From Deltaproteobacteria bacterium (GTDB lineage: Bacteria; Desulfobacterota; Desulfuromonadia; Desulfuromonadales; Geopsychrobacteraceae): a stretch of 52,797 bases of DNA. Position 1 is the stretch's first letter, and the number at the start of each line of letters is the position of its first letter. The notes below the pieces were generated by a model that worked only from the letters and a program-made list of their open reading frames with translations, was not told the origin of the DNA and made no database searches. Position numbers and translations under genes: made by a program. Below, in pieces: positions 46,862-51,282 of the stretch. The DNA is taken from assembly GCA_024280485.1 (NCBI GenBank), contig JAJRQB010000031.1, forward strand, positions 1 to 52,797, written 5' to 3'.

Positions 46862-46900
46862 ATTTTATTTGTATCCACACCTGAGGCTGTGAACTAAGGA

Positions 46901-46947
46901 GTAAAACAAAAAAGGCCGGGAAGTCTCCCCGGCCTTTTTTGTTTTAC
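46901..46947. terminator. Bidirectional terminator with perfect 20-bp stem
   Basis: The arms 46901-46920 and 46928-46947 are exact reverse complements around a 7-nt loop. Each has a GGCCGGG-type GC core and an outer A/T tract, so transcription can end in both directions. It overlaps the stop codon of the - strand methyltransferase gene. Confidence 0.95.
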
Positions 46948-47741
46948 TATTTCTTTTCTTTCTCTTTGCGCGTGGCATAAATCAACAGTTTTTGATCGGT
47001 ATAGGTTTCGACCTCACCCGCGAAGGATTCAATCTGAAAATAGTCGTGGATTTTGGTTGGGGCATCCATGAAGAAGCGGTTCAGTTCCTGAATCTTCGCT
47101 CTGCTCATCCCCGCCCGCCTTGCCCAATCGTGAAAATCGTGTTTTTTGGGTATCACCCTGACTTCGTGAAGAATCAGTTCGGCATCGCCGATCATTTGTA
47201 CCCATTCGGTTTCACTGAAGGCGCGAATATGAGTTGGGTCACGCATTTTTTCCATGGTTTGATAGAATTCTGCTATTTCAGGGTCTGGTGGCAGCAGGGT
47301 GTCGATAATAACCATTCGCCCGCCTCGGCGCAACACGCGGTGAAATTCCTTAAGTGCGCGTGGGACTTCAGGGAAATGGTGTGGTGCAATCCGACAGGTC
47401 AGAAGAGTGAAGGAACCTGCCGGAAATGGGAGGTCTTCTGCATCTGCTTCGCGAAAGACAACATTGTCGATATTTCCTTCATCGGCTATGTACTCCTGCG
47501 CTTTTTTAAGCATCTGCATGGTGAGGTCCGAAGCGACAACCTGCCTGACTTTGGACGCGAAGTAGAATGCTGTATGCCCACCACCGCAGGCAACATCAAG
47601 CATGTTGTCTTCTCTGGTCGGTTTAAGTAATTCTGCGGCGGCATCGAGATCTTTACCGCCAGTGAAAGATTTGGAATAGACATATTCCATGGCAGCTCGA
47701 CCGAATTGCTCGCGAACCTTATTCTTGAATTTCTGGTCCAT
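46947..47741 (-). CDS. UbiE-like class I SAM-dependent methyltransferase
   Basis: Cytosolic methyltransferase of 264 residues; the substrate is unknown. Motif I is MLDVACGGGHTAFYFA (about 47-62), motif II VVASDLTMQMLKKA, motif III LPFPAGSFTLLTCRIAPHHFP, and post-motif LRRGGRMVIIDTLLPPDPE. This is the Methyltransf_11/UbiE pattern, but gene context gives no quinone link. It is separated by 298 bp from the divergent permease gene. Confidence 0.85.
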   Translation of the reverse strand: MDQKFKNKVREQFGRAAMEYVYSKSFTGGKDLDAAAELLKPTREDNMLDVACGGGHTAFYFASKVRQVVASDLTMQMLKKAQEYIADEGNIDNVVFREADAEDLPFPAGSFTLLTCRIAPHHFPEVPRALKEFHRVLRRGGRMVIIDTLLPPDPEIAEFYQTMEKMRDPTHIRAFSETEWVQMIGDAELILHEVRVIPKKHDFHDWARRAGMSRAKIQELNRFFMDAPTKIHDYFQIESFAGEVETYTDQKLLIYATRKEKEKK

Positions 47742-48009: not shown

Positions 48010-48039
48010 GAATTTTTCAAATTGAAGGGTAGAAGATTG

Positions 48040-49029
48040 ATGGAAAGTGTTCTGCAAGTGATTTCTGAATTGGGTGTCGGGATCTGGGCTGAGTTTATTG
48101 ATATTCTCCCATATCTGGCCATAGGGGTTCTACTCGAAGCGATCATTCGGACTATGAAGTGGCATCTGAAAATTCGTCACGCACTGACCCGCTTTGGTGG
48201 TTATGCAATAATTCTCGGGACATTACTGGGGGTTGTTAGCCCTTTATGTGCTTGCGCGACCTTGCCGCTGGTTATTTCACTGTTGCTCGCAGGATTGCCC
48301 CTTGCCCCGGCGATGGCTCTGCTGGTGGCATCGCCTCTGATGAGCCCTGCCGGTTATACCCTCTTAAATTGGGAACTCGGCCCAGTCTGGGCCAATGCTG
48401 TTCTTGTCAGTGCGGTCCTGTTTGGACTTTTTGCTGGATATATGACCCTTTTCTTACGCCGCTATGGTTTCTCCGAAGAACTCATATTTAAAAATAGTTT
48501 GCCCGAAGGAGATTTTCACGACCCTGAATATCCGGTGGAAGAGCTGCGCTGCGATTGCGGACAGCAACTGTCACATCGCGTCAACCGTTGCACTCATAAC
48601 AAATTTCTGGTTTTTCTGGCCAAGTTCTGGGAAGGGATGATCAAAATTGGCAAGTTCGCCCTGCTTGGAGTTGTCATAGAGGTCCTGGCGATTCAGTTTA
48701 TTCCGAACGAATGGGTCTCCGGGATATTGGCGGGTAATGGCGTACTCCCGATTTTCGGTCTTGCCTTTGCGACTATTCCCTTGCATCTCCCCCAGGTGAC
48801 GGCTGCTGCTATGCTCTACGGGTTTGTTTCACCTGAGTTTGGTGAGGGAATTACCGTGTCTCGGGGGGCCGGGATTGCTTTGCTGGTTGGTGGTCCTGTG
48901 ACCGCACTGCCGGTTATGGGATTATTTATTGCGATGTTCAAAAAGCGGGTGTTGGCGCTTTATCTGGGAATATGTGTCAGTGGAACCCTGATATTGGCTT
49001 TTAGTTACCGCGCCTTACCGTTTTTTTAA
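48040..49029 (+). CDS. Permease of the SO_0444/DUF318 family, probable metal efflux
   Basis: Integral membrane protein of 329 residues with about eight helices in two halves. The first half holds the motif VVSPLCACATLPLVISLLLAGLPLAPAMALLVASPLMSP, the second LPLHLPQ-like IPLHLPQVTAAAMLYGFVSPEFGEG. The central loop is rich in metal ligands: CDCGQQLSHRVNRCTHN. The family is annotated as Cu/Zn or arsenical efflux permease; the substrate here is inferred. The ATG at 48040 follows GAAGGG; an in-frame TTG lies at 48022. A terminator follows. Confidence 0.82.
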   Translation: MESVLQVISELGVGIWAEFIDILPYLAIGVLLEAIIRTMKWHLKIRHALTRFGGYAIILGTLLGVVSPLCACATLPLVISLLLAGLPLAPAMALLVASPLMSPAGYTLLNWELGPVWANAVLVSAVLFGLFAGYMTLFLRRYGFSEELIFKNSLPEGDFHDPEYPVEELRCDCGQQLSHRVNRCTHNKFLVFLAKFWEGMIKIGKFALLGVVIEVLAIQFIPNEWVSGILAGNGVLPIFGLAFATIPLHLPQVTAAAMLYGFVSPEFGEGITVSRGAGIALLVGGPVTALPVMGLFIAMFKKRVLALYLGICVSGTLILAFSYRALPFF

Positions 49030-49132: not shown

Positions 49133-49777
49133 TCACTTCTCTGGTTCAGTCTCGAACTGAGCGGACTGTCGGTTCAGCTCTTCTAAAATGAGACTGCAGG
49201 ATTGGAGAATCTCCTGAGGTAAGGATTGCAGCTGTTGCAATTGACCTTCCAGGCGTCTTACCGTGGCCAGAGATTGACGCAATAATTGTTCTTCGGTCAG
49301 GCTGTTGGTTTGTCCGGTCAGCTCACGAAACTGCTTGGCAACAGTCGGATGGCTGCGCTCTTTTTCAAAAACGGCCTCGCGCAGTTGTTGATACTGCTCC
49401 TCGCTCATCTGCTGTTCTTCCTGGGCCTGTCGCAAAAGGTCGATGGAGCGATAGTCAGGGACTGGCAGCATCTGCTCATTGCGCACCAGAATTTCGGGCT
49501 CCGCTTTTTTCAGAAAGTTATAGGCGCCGGTCAATTTGAGAGCGGTGTCTTTTTTGATCCGCACCTCATCGCGACAGTAATCTTCAAAGCTGGTATGGCC
49601 CCAGTCGTTGAATTCTCCCTTGTTGCGCACCTGAGATAGCTGCTCTCCCAGTTCGACCCAACTCGATTTAAACTGGCGTGCGACACTCAAGACCCGGTAG
49701 CGCGGCGATGCCGGATCGAGTTGCTTCATGATTTGTTCGATCACCAGTTCACCTTTGGTTTTCGGGGTATCGGTCAT
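49133..49777 (-). CDS. Coiled-coil protein of unknown function
   Basis: I do not recognise this 214-residue protein. It is soluble, highly charged and mostly helical. Residues about 35-85 (SSWVELGEQLSQVRNKGEFNDWG, then FEDYCRDEVRIKKDTALKLTGAYNFL) look like a helix-turn-helix region of the kind found in plasmid and phage accessory proteins. Residues about 115-214 are rich in Q and E and coiled-coil-prone (LRQAQEEQQMSEEQYQQLRE, then TVRRLEGQLQQLQSLPQEIL). Possible roles are a DNA-binding or replication accessory protein, with no firm evidence. It is transcribed away from the rlmI-like gene. Confidence 0.75.
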   Translation of the reverse strand: MTDTPKTKGELVIEQIMKQLDPASPRYRVLSVARQFKSSWVELGEQLSQVRNKGEFNDWGHTSFEDYCRDEVRIKKDTALKLTGAYNFLKKAEPEILVRNEQMLPVPDYRSIDLLRQAQEEQQMSEEQYQQLREAVFEKERSHPTVAKQFRELTGQTNSLTEEQLLRQSLATVRRLEGQLQQLQSLPQEILQSCSLILEELNRQSAQFETEPEK

Positions 49778-49810: not shown

Positions 49811-50032
49811 TTAGGCGCTGGGCAGATTATCATAGTGGCGGTTTTCTAGCCCGCATTTCTCACAGAGATTGTCACGAGGAGCCGTAAAGTGCCGTTGCTG
49901 TAAGGCACACAAAGAAAAACACGCGCAGGCATACTTGCAGTCTGTCGAGCATTTTTTTTCGAGGGTAACGCAGCAGACATGGTGCTTTCCGGTTCCGCAG
50001 CAGATTTGCTGTGAGAAATGTGGGCTAGCCAG
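49811..50032 (-). other. Cysteine-dense reading frame without a standard start
   Basis: On the - strand a frame is open from 50047 to the TAA at 49811-49813. From a CTG at 50032 it encodes 73 residues with 11 cysteines in a 52-residue span: CC-x8-CC-x6-C-x3-C-x3-C-x-C-x3-C-x14-C-x2-C, ending EKCGLENRHYDNLPSA. No ATG, GTG or TTG occurs in the frame and no ribosome-binding site precedes the CTG. It could be a broken metal-binding protein gene, a gene with a rare start, or a by-product of the inverted repeat enclosing it. It points toward the unknown gene at 49777. Confidence 0.3.
49846..50028. mobile_element. 183-bp element with 20-bp terminal inverted repeats
   Basis: The 20 bp at 49846-49865 recur in inverted orientation at 50009-50028 with one mismatch; both begin with CTAG at the outer edge. 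Beyond the arms, weaker inverted similarity continues inward for about 20 bp. The size and shape resemble a miniature inverted-repeat element. No target duplication is visible in the flanks, so an internal inverted duplication is the alternative. It fills most of the 300-bp gap before the rlmI-like gene. Confidence 0.45.
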
Positions 50033-50088
50033 TAAAGAGCCGCTCGGTTACAATGCGGCAGAATTTTTACTAAAGGATCTATTTGTTG

Positions 50089-51282
50089 ATGAATAAATAT
50101 CAAGTTGGACCAGAAACAGTGCGGATGCTCGGCCTGCGCCATCCTTGGGTGATTGCTGATAAATTCACCAAGGAATGGTCTGCGCCGAAAGTCGGAGACC
50201 TGGCACTGCTCTGTGATGAAAACAATAAACCTCTGGCAACCGCGCTGATCGATCCCAATGATCGGGTCGTCGCCAGAGTCCTCGGACCTCCCGGTATAAA
50301 GCTCGATGCGGGCTGGTTTCGTAATCGTCTGCAAAAAGCCAAGCGTCTGCGTGAGCAGGCCGGGCTGGATGAGACCGATGCCTACCGCCTGGTTAATGCC
50401 GAAGGTGACGGCCTGCCCGGCCTGACCATCGATTGCTACGCCGGTTACTTGATGATCCAACTCTATACCCCCGCCTGGGATAACTACCTGCCGACGCTGC
50501 TTGAGGTTCTGCAGGAACTTTTTGCGCCCCTCGGGATTTACCGCAAATTGCGTCCCCAGGAGACCCGGCAGCTCGAAGCGAAGAGCGGCAATAAACAGTA
50601 CAGTCGCCTGCTCAGCGGTCAGCCTGCGCCGACTCCTTTGGAAGTCAAAGAGAACGGCCTGCTTTTTCATACCGATCTTGCTGAAGGTTTGAATACCGGG
50701 CTCTTCCCCGATCAACGCCGTCATCGACTCGATCTGATGCAGCGGATCAAAGGCAAGCGCTTCTTAAACCTGTTCGCCTTTACCGGCGCTTTTTCGGTGG
50801 CTGCTGCTGCCGCTGGGGCCAAGCAGGTGACCAGTGTCGATGTTTCGGCGAAATATCTGAATATCGCGCGGGATAATTTTTCGCTCAATCGGCTCAACCC
50901 AAAACGTCATCGCTTTATCGTCGGTGATGTCTTTGCCGAGCTGGCCAAGATGCAGCAGGCCGGCGAACGTTTCGATGTCATCCTCTTCGATCCGCCCTCA
51001 TTCTCAACCACCAAGAAGAGTCAGTTTTCCACCCGTGGTGGCACCTCGCAATTAGCCAGCGCCACTCTGTCGCTGCTTGAGCCGGGTGGCCTCTTGATCG
51101 GTTCTTCCAATCATCAAAAGGTTGATATGGTCAGCTACGTGAAAGAGCTGCGCCGTGGAGCTATCGAGGTCGGCTGTGAACTACGCACCATCTATCGCAG
51201 CGGTCAGCCCGAGGATTTCCCGGTGCCGGTCTGTTTCCCCGAGGGGAACTATCTCAAATACGTGATCAGCGTCAAGGATTAG
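50089..51282 (+). CDS. RlmI/YccW-type 23S rRNA (cytosine-C5) methyltransferase
   Basis: SAM-dependent rRNA methyltransferase of about 397 residues. An N-terminal PUA-like domain (LGLRHPWVIADKF, VGDLALLCDENNKPLATALIDP) is followed by a linker with YRLVNAEGDGLPGLTIDCYAGYLMIQ and the Rossmann domain: LNTGLFPDQRRHRLDL, FLNLFAFTGAFSVAAAAAGAKQVTSVDVS and FDVILFDPPSFSTTKKS. The family includes RlmI, which modifies C1962 of E. coli 23S rRNA. AAGGA at 50073-50077 suits a TTG at 50083 or 50086 as well as the ATG at 50089, so the exact start is open. Confidence 0.88.
   Translation: MNKYQVGPETVRMLGLRHPWVIADKFTKEWSAPKVGDLALLCDENNKPLATALIDPNDRVVARVLGPPGIKLDAGWFRNRLQKAKRLREQAGLDETDAYRLVNAEGDGLPGLTIDCYAGYLMIQLYTPAWDNYLPTLLEVLQELFAPLGIYRKLRPQETRQLEAKSGNKQYSRLLSGQPAPTPLEVKENGLLFHTDLAEGLNTGLFPDQRRHRLDLMQRIKGKRFLNLFAFTGAFSVAAAAAGAKQVTSVDVSAKYLNIARDNFSLNRLNPKRHRFIVGDVFAELAKMQQAGERFDVILFDPPSFSTTKKSQFSTRGGTSQLASATLSLLEPGGLLIGSSNHQKVDMVSYVKELRRGAIEVGCELRTIYRSGQPEDFPVPVCFPEGNYLKYVISVKD

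Follow-up and report, generated by a model that had tools for sequence, protein, structure and literature searches.

The locus considered here raises the question of how an inverted repeat of 183 bp came to lie between two divergent ORFs near the end of a 52,797-nucleotide stretch of DNA (contig JAJRQB010000031.1), referred to in full as the window. A first reading, made from the sequence only, had left two answers standing, a non-autonomous mobile element and an old inverted duplication of a metal-binding coding segment. The comparisons presented below make it very probable that this is a 175-bp MITE with ends of IS1380 type, which was inserted at a YTAR target (here CTAG) with duplication of 4 bp and which belongs to a cross-phylum family with a conserved and presumably selected rod.

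The two 20-bp arms were found as described in that reading, with 19 of 20 positions identical, at 49846-49865 and 50009-50028. Inverted similarity continues inward of them in an imperfect form (55 nt, 71% complementarity), as had also been noticed. Arm pairs of this kind (20 nt, at least 19 matches, span of up to 400) were absent from all 15 first-order Markov samples of the window, and the real window has two. The second pair is a short strong hairpin at 46899-46949, placed between two minus-strand ORFs.

The limits of the element were set by comparison with congener G007, where the same intergenic region lacks the element and reads GGTTTTT CTGG CCAGTAAAG, and the window reads GGTTTT CTAG, element, CTAG CCAGTAAAG. 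Because the flanks adjoin in G007 with one 4-mer between them, CTAG was taken as the duplicated target and 49850-50024 as the element proper (Table 1). Both arms do begin with the letters CTAG, as had been stated; these letters belong to the target duplication, and the arms proper start at CCC. The 4-mer at the empty site, CTGG, differs from CTAG by one substitution, which is a small discord. In another relative, G003, the right flank alone matched by BLAST, and reading on at the matching place revealed no element.

Table 1. Features of the inserted element and its surroundings, in window coordinates.
Feature	Position	Strand	Basis
Element proper, 175 bp	49850..50024	+ (orientation of the better-folding strand)	Arm, fold and empty-site comparison
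Left target-site duplication copy, CTAG	49846..49849	.	Single 4-mer CTGG at G007 empty site; direct YTAR duplications in G049, G080, G212
Right target-site duplication copy, CTAG	50025..50028	.	Same as for left copy at 49846..49849
Left terminal inverted repeat, CCCGCATTTCTCACA	49850..49864	+	Identical to both ends of Thauera IS1380 in L052
Right terminal inverted repeat, differing from the left at one position	50010..50024	-	Arm comparison
Outer conserved internal loop, left side (consensus TTCGTCGCGAG, window TTGTCACGAG)	49869..49878	+	Alignment A1, consensus fold
Outer loop, right side, CCGCAGCAGA	49995..50004	+	Alignment A1, consensus fold
Second loop, left side, GCTGTAAGGCAC	49897..49908	+	Alignment A1
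Second loop, right side, GGTAACGCAGCAGAC	49964..49978	+	Alignment A1, repeat comparison, shorter rods
Apical hairpin of the rod, CGCAGG...GTCGAG	49924..49949	+	Fold, alignment A1, consensus fold
Flanking ORF, 214 aa, divergent	49133..49777	-	No NCBIfam match
Flanking ORF, 399 aa, resembling 23S rRNA cytosine methyltransferases (RlmI type)	50083..51282	+	Below NCBIfam cut-offs

The element has terminal inverted repeats and CTAG on both sides against one 4-mer at the empty site; it is short, at 175 bp, and carries no transposase gene. A single copy at a fixed position without empty sites had been named beforehand as an argument against mobility; the copy is indeed single, and an empty site exists. 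Searches of the window genome G000 (a draft of 178 contigs, 96% complete) returned no further copies. The multiple copies that a BLASTN search was to look for were thus missing in its own genome, and relatives of the element are multicopy in other genomes, with at least 15 in G049, at least 15 in G080 and several in G212 (per-genome numbers are lower bounds, 15 candidates being scored in each). Since copy number describes a MITE population, we still file the single-copy window element as a MITE.

The flanks of these copies bear on the target. In G049, where the ends were fixed by the terminal repeat first, both ends were found in 15 of the 16 copies examined, each 175 bp from end to end. Identical 4-bp flanks were present in eight of the 15 (CTAG, TTAG, CTAA and TTAA, two each) and differed in the other seven. 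TTAG/TTAG and CTAA/CTAA are direct, non-palindromic repeats, so the duplication can be told apart from an extension of the inverted repeat. Identical flanks were also recorded for 8/9 copies in G080, 5/5 in G212, 1/2 in G102, 1/2 in G193 and 0/1 in G185, counts that lean towards a target-site duplication because the end search for these genomes and for G089 preferred YTAR and identical flanks; in G089 this examination found no ends. A scan for the terminal repeat yielded at least 120 genome stretches, and 63 end pairs 50-320 bp apart, the window included, were obtained from 132 records examined with up to four mismatches an end. Their commonest length was 184 bp including the CTAGs (12 cases); the 41 pairs with CTAG on both sides were not counted as evidence, as the scan pattern itself contained CTAG. 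Neither a phage collection (queried with the element and its flanks) nor a plasmid collection (element alone) gave a match, and for five viral contigs with the repeat pattern nothing matched the interior down to an E-value cut-off of 0.05.

Ends of the same type were found around transposase genes. At L052, from Thauera, the terminal repeat of the window element bounds 1714 bp with a 472-aa IS1380 transposase (NF033539, 410.5 bits; PF13701) and is flanked by CTAG on both sides, and at two candidate loci, L092 and L040, such ends are about 1.7 kb apart. An intact IS1380 (L249; 467 aa, 410.6 bits) occurs once in genome G080 and lies between CTAG-CCCGGATGATTCATGA and a right end that matches it; of 16 positions, 14 at one end and 13 at the other are the same as in the miniature copies of that genome (CCCGCATTATTCATGA). 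The IS1380-family elements of L052 and G080 have terminal repeats and flanking CTAG in common with the window element, and differ from it in being about 1.7 kb long and carrying a transposase. Of eight genomes searched for IS1380, five (G010, G212, G102, G185, G089) yielded none. The IS1380s of G049 lacked the ends of its miniature copies, and neither end type was found at that of G193. In G000 no IS1380 transposase was detected at E up to 0.001, and for this reason the window copy looks stranded. Insertion and duplication are read from the comparison with G007, and the enzyme, to judge from the common ends, was most likely that of an IS1380. A transposase of this family, now absent or unassembled, would have acted in trans and placed the element between the two divergent genes, at a YTAR target reading CTAG, duplicating 4 bp. 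It should be added that the Thauera IS1380 (L052, 60-1900) is situated between copies of the repeat GTTCATCCCCACGGGCGTGGGGAACAC, in an arrangement that resembles a CRISPR array.

The interior of the element does not resemble that of the insertion sequences. When L052, L092 and L040 were compared with the short elements, all matches above 35 nt measured 36-75 nt and were confined to the ends in these three full-length pairs, and no rod core was found in any of them; on this comparison, the interior did not arise by deletion from the ISs in question. Short elements from different phyla (five in all) align end to end, with interior identities to the window element of 0.39-0.74 for the other 21 members of a 22-element alignment (A1), and of 0.42-0.54 for nine elements of G049, G080, G193 and G212. 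One unbranched rod was predicted from A1 at -66.4 kcal/mol; the opposite strand reached -35.2. Paired cells amounted to 90.5% versus 74.7% in shuffled alignments (0 of 500 shuffles), a count that leans towards the structure because the consensus was derived from A1 itself; 35 of 55 pairs had double changes, and pairing fell to 34-43% in a sliding control. The plus strand folded better in all 22 aligned elements and in 30 of 31 further ones oriented by motif, though the elements are related and these counts are therefore not independent of one another. Outside the terminal repeats, on a strand-neutral structure, G-U cells outnumbered A-C cells by 82 to 55, a modest bias. Such a conserved rod core had been foreseen by neither alternative of the sequence-only reading.

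The window element itself (fold of 49840-50034) forms one long hairpin on the plus strand, at -85.7 kcal/mol and z -6.70, and a weaker one on the minus strand (-67.5 kcal/mol, z -4.05). The right side of its outer loop (49995-50004) is an imperfect repeat of 49964-49978 (repeat family D2), and the left side of the second loop has the counterpart GATGCAAGGCGC in the shorter rods of relatives. Rfam 15 gave no covariance-model match for the window at gathering scores and none for six loci at E up to 0.5. Among 11 rod loci, the sole hits above gathering were two neighbouring tRNAs.

An interior model (R1) was built from the 22 aligned rows without terminal repeats. It matched 49864-50009 of the window on the plus strand with 101.1 bits, this row being part of the training set. 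In 127 sources it gave 34 full-length matches of at least 45 bits, 22 of which were its own training rows and 12 were not. By record titles, matches came from Acidobacteriota, Pseudomonadota, Desulfobacterota, Verrucomicrobiota and Bdellovibrio, many of the records being MAGs; those in Phycisphaerae were weak (26-28 bits). We assumed the phyla from the record names, except for Acanthopleuribacter, which was looked up. With the window genome included, 45 of 60 relatives matched at E up to 0.001, and so did 10 of 198 genomes from across the phylum with E no greater than 1e-10; among the matches listed for the 60 relatives, many cover only R1 positions 15 to about 134, corresponding to a shorter rod. 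A sequence-only model, R2, recovered 19 of 22 chosen loci, shorter rods included, and missed L168, L174 and L177; for the recovered loci already examined, its strand was that of R1. Another end, GGCTGATSAAAAAYGCCC, had 68 matches in G046 and 54 in G041, with 1 and 0 in the backward control. The core is thus enclosed by terminal repeats of more than one type, and rods that have other ends contain cores related to it.

Shorter related rods without IS1380 ends are also present in the window genome, at C108:8196-8317 (L166), C108:29526-29645 (L167) and C27:9767-9887 (L169), with the loops GATGCAAGGCGC / GCAACGC. In the congeners G000 and G004 a shorter rod adjoins a tRNA gene (L167 and L178; Rfam tRNA 51.3 and 50.1 bits), and these two are perhaps one shared insertion.

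Several other explanations of the locus were weighed. The coding alternative, in which a metal-binding segment was duplicated in inverted orientation, can practically be dismissed. Both strands do read Cys-containing peptides with CEKCGL, as had been claimed, and minus frame 0 (counted from CTAG) is open in 12 of the 22 aligned elements, albeit closed in the window element. The peptide is simply what the terminal repeat yields on translation (in 31 of the 44 arms of the 22 elements), and the two frames that run uninterrupted through the window element do so in no more than two and three of the 22 relatives. An RNA fixed in place that regulates the adjacent gene in cis would agree with the position in a 5' region and with the conserved, RNA-like fold; we nevertheless regard it as highly improbable, given the empty site in G007 and the dispersed copies with target duplications at unrelated places. 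Mechanical ORF calls placed 24 of 32 elements between two ORFs (10 antisense tandem, five sense tandem, five divergent and four convergent), five inside an ORF and three at contig edges. No rule of gene orientation was found among these 32, which argues against such a role. The promoter search produced a single weak promoter-like match, which begins at the right-hand CTAG, and the terminator search none. A 335-aa ORF at 48022-49029 had sub-cut-off matches to the SO_0444-type Cu/Zn efflux and SaoE families.

A non-autonomous element, or MITE, is what the empty site, the YTAR flanks, the multicopy relatives and the IS1380s with matching ends lead us to, so that this half of the initial alternative holds. 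It might simply be the decayed product of an internal deletion in one IS1380, its palindrome a by-product without function; the ends shared with IS1380 and the usual origin of MITEs by deletion, as given in the available passages of PMC10969869, would suit this explanation, which we find unlikely in view of IS matches restricted to the ends and of short elements from different phyla that align throughout with compensatory changes. Movement by some other transposase that uses such ends and also targets YTAR, the IS1380 being coincidental, would account for the copy-bearing genomes without a detected IS1380 and for the related rods with other ends, but two independent IS1380s (L052, G080) have matching ends and a CTAG next to each of them, and render it quite unlikely. 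In the IS1380-moved MITE favoured here, the rod would be a selected part, acting as folded RNA or single-stranded DNA; it may protect or help the element as a folded transcript or single strand, or make its insertions tolerable. Going further, the core could be a transposon-borne structured RNA, selected as RNA on one strand and occurring in at least five phyla behind different ends (several IS1380-like types and others), with the core defining the lineage. We advance this last idea tentatively and would sooner doubt than accept it.

RUP and BOX of pneumococcus, ERIC and the Correia elements are likewise small repeats in intergenic DNA that form stable hairpins, and some of them are moved in trans by an IS; a narrow host range and other ends and targets set them apart from the window element. 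Among open-licence PMC papers, none contains the six strings of the terminal repeat, none on IS1380 has CTAG together with target-site terms, and no title listed for IS1380 and MITE concerns such a family. QMITE2 of Coxiella burnetii, as presented in the available passages of PMC10969869, is like the window element in length and in its predicted full-length stem-loop transcript, but has direct repeats of 7-9 bp, other ends and one host, and no cross-phylum conserved core is reported for it there; IS1380 does not occur in that MITE review.

The usual view of MITEs is that they are decayed remnants left by deletion within a local IS. An interior fold kept by compensatory change across phyla, and behind more than one end type, implies selection on the interior, and with a family whose fold is conserved, the purpose of folded MITE transcripts or hairpins can be put to the test. 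A further consequence concerns Geobacter, for which the passages seen of PMC2700814 (2009) describe 'predicted short RNA elements' with 24 copies in G. metallireducens and the central palindrome GRCGTAGCGCTGCTACGCC. This palindrome was exact in four of 271 loci (L077, L158, L164, L174), inside R1 matches; L158 and L174 are one place, so it occurs at three. It is absent from the window loci L001-L003, and on that account the window element, which has IS1380-type ends, was not filed as a member of the 2009 family as described in those passages. By models R1 and R2 the two are related, and one portion of this wider group had therefore already been described from Geobacter, without a mover in the same passages. 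The scattered multicopy 'predicted RNAs' of Geobacter are thereby tied to this group, for part of which a mover is identifiable. At L077 of Acanthopleuribacter pedis (Acidobacteriota), a rod at 1100-1243 has the exact Geobacter palindrome, and an IS1380-type element lies in the same locus.
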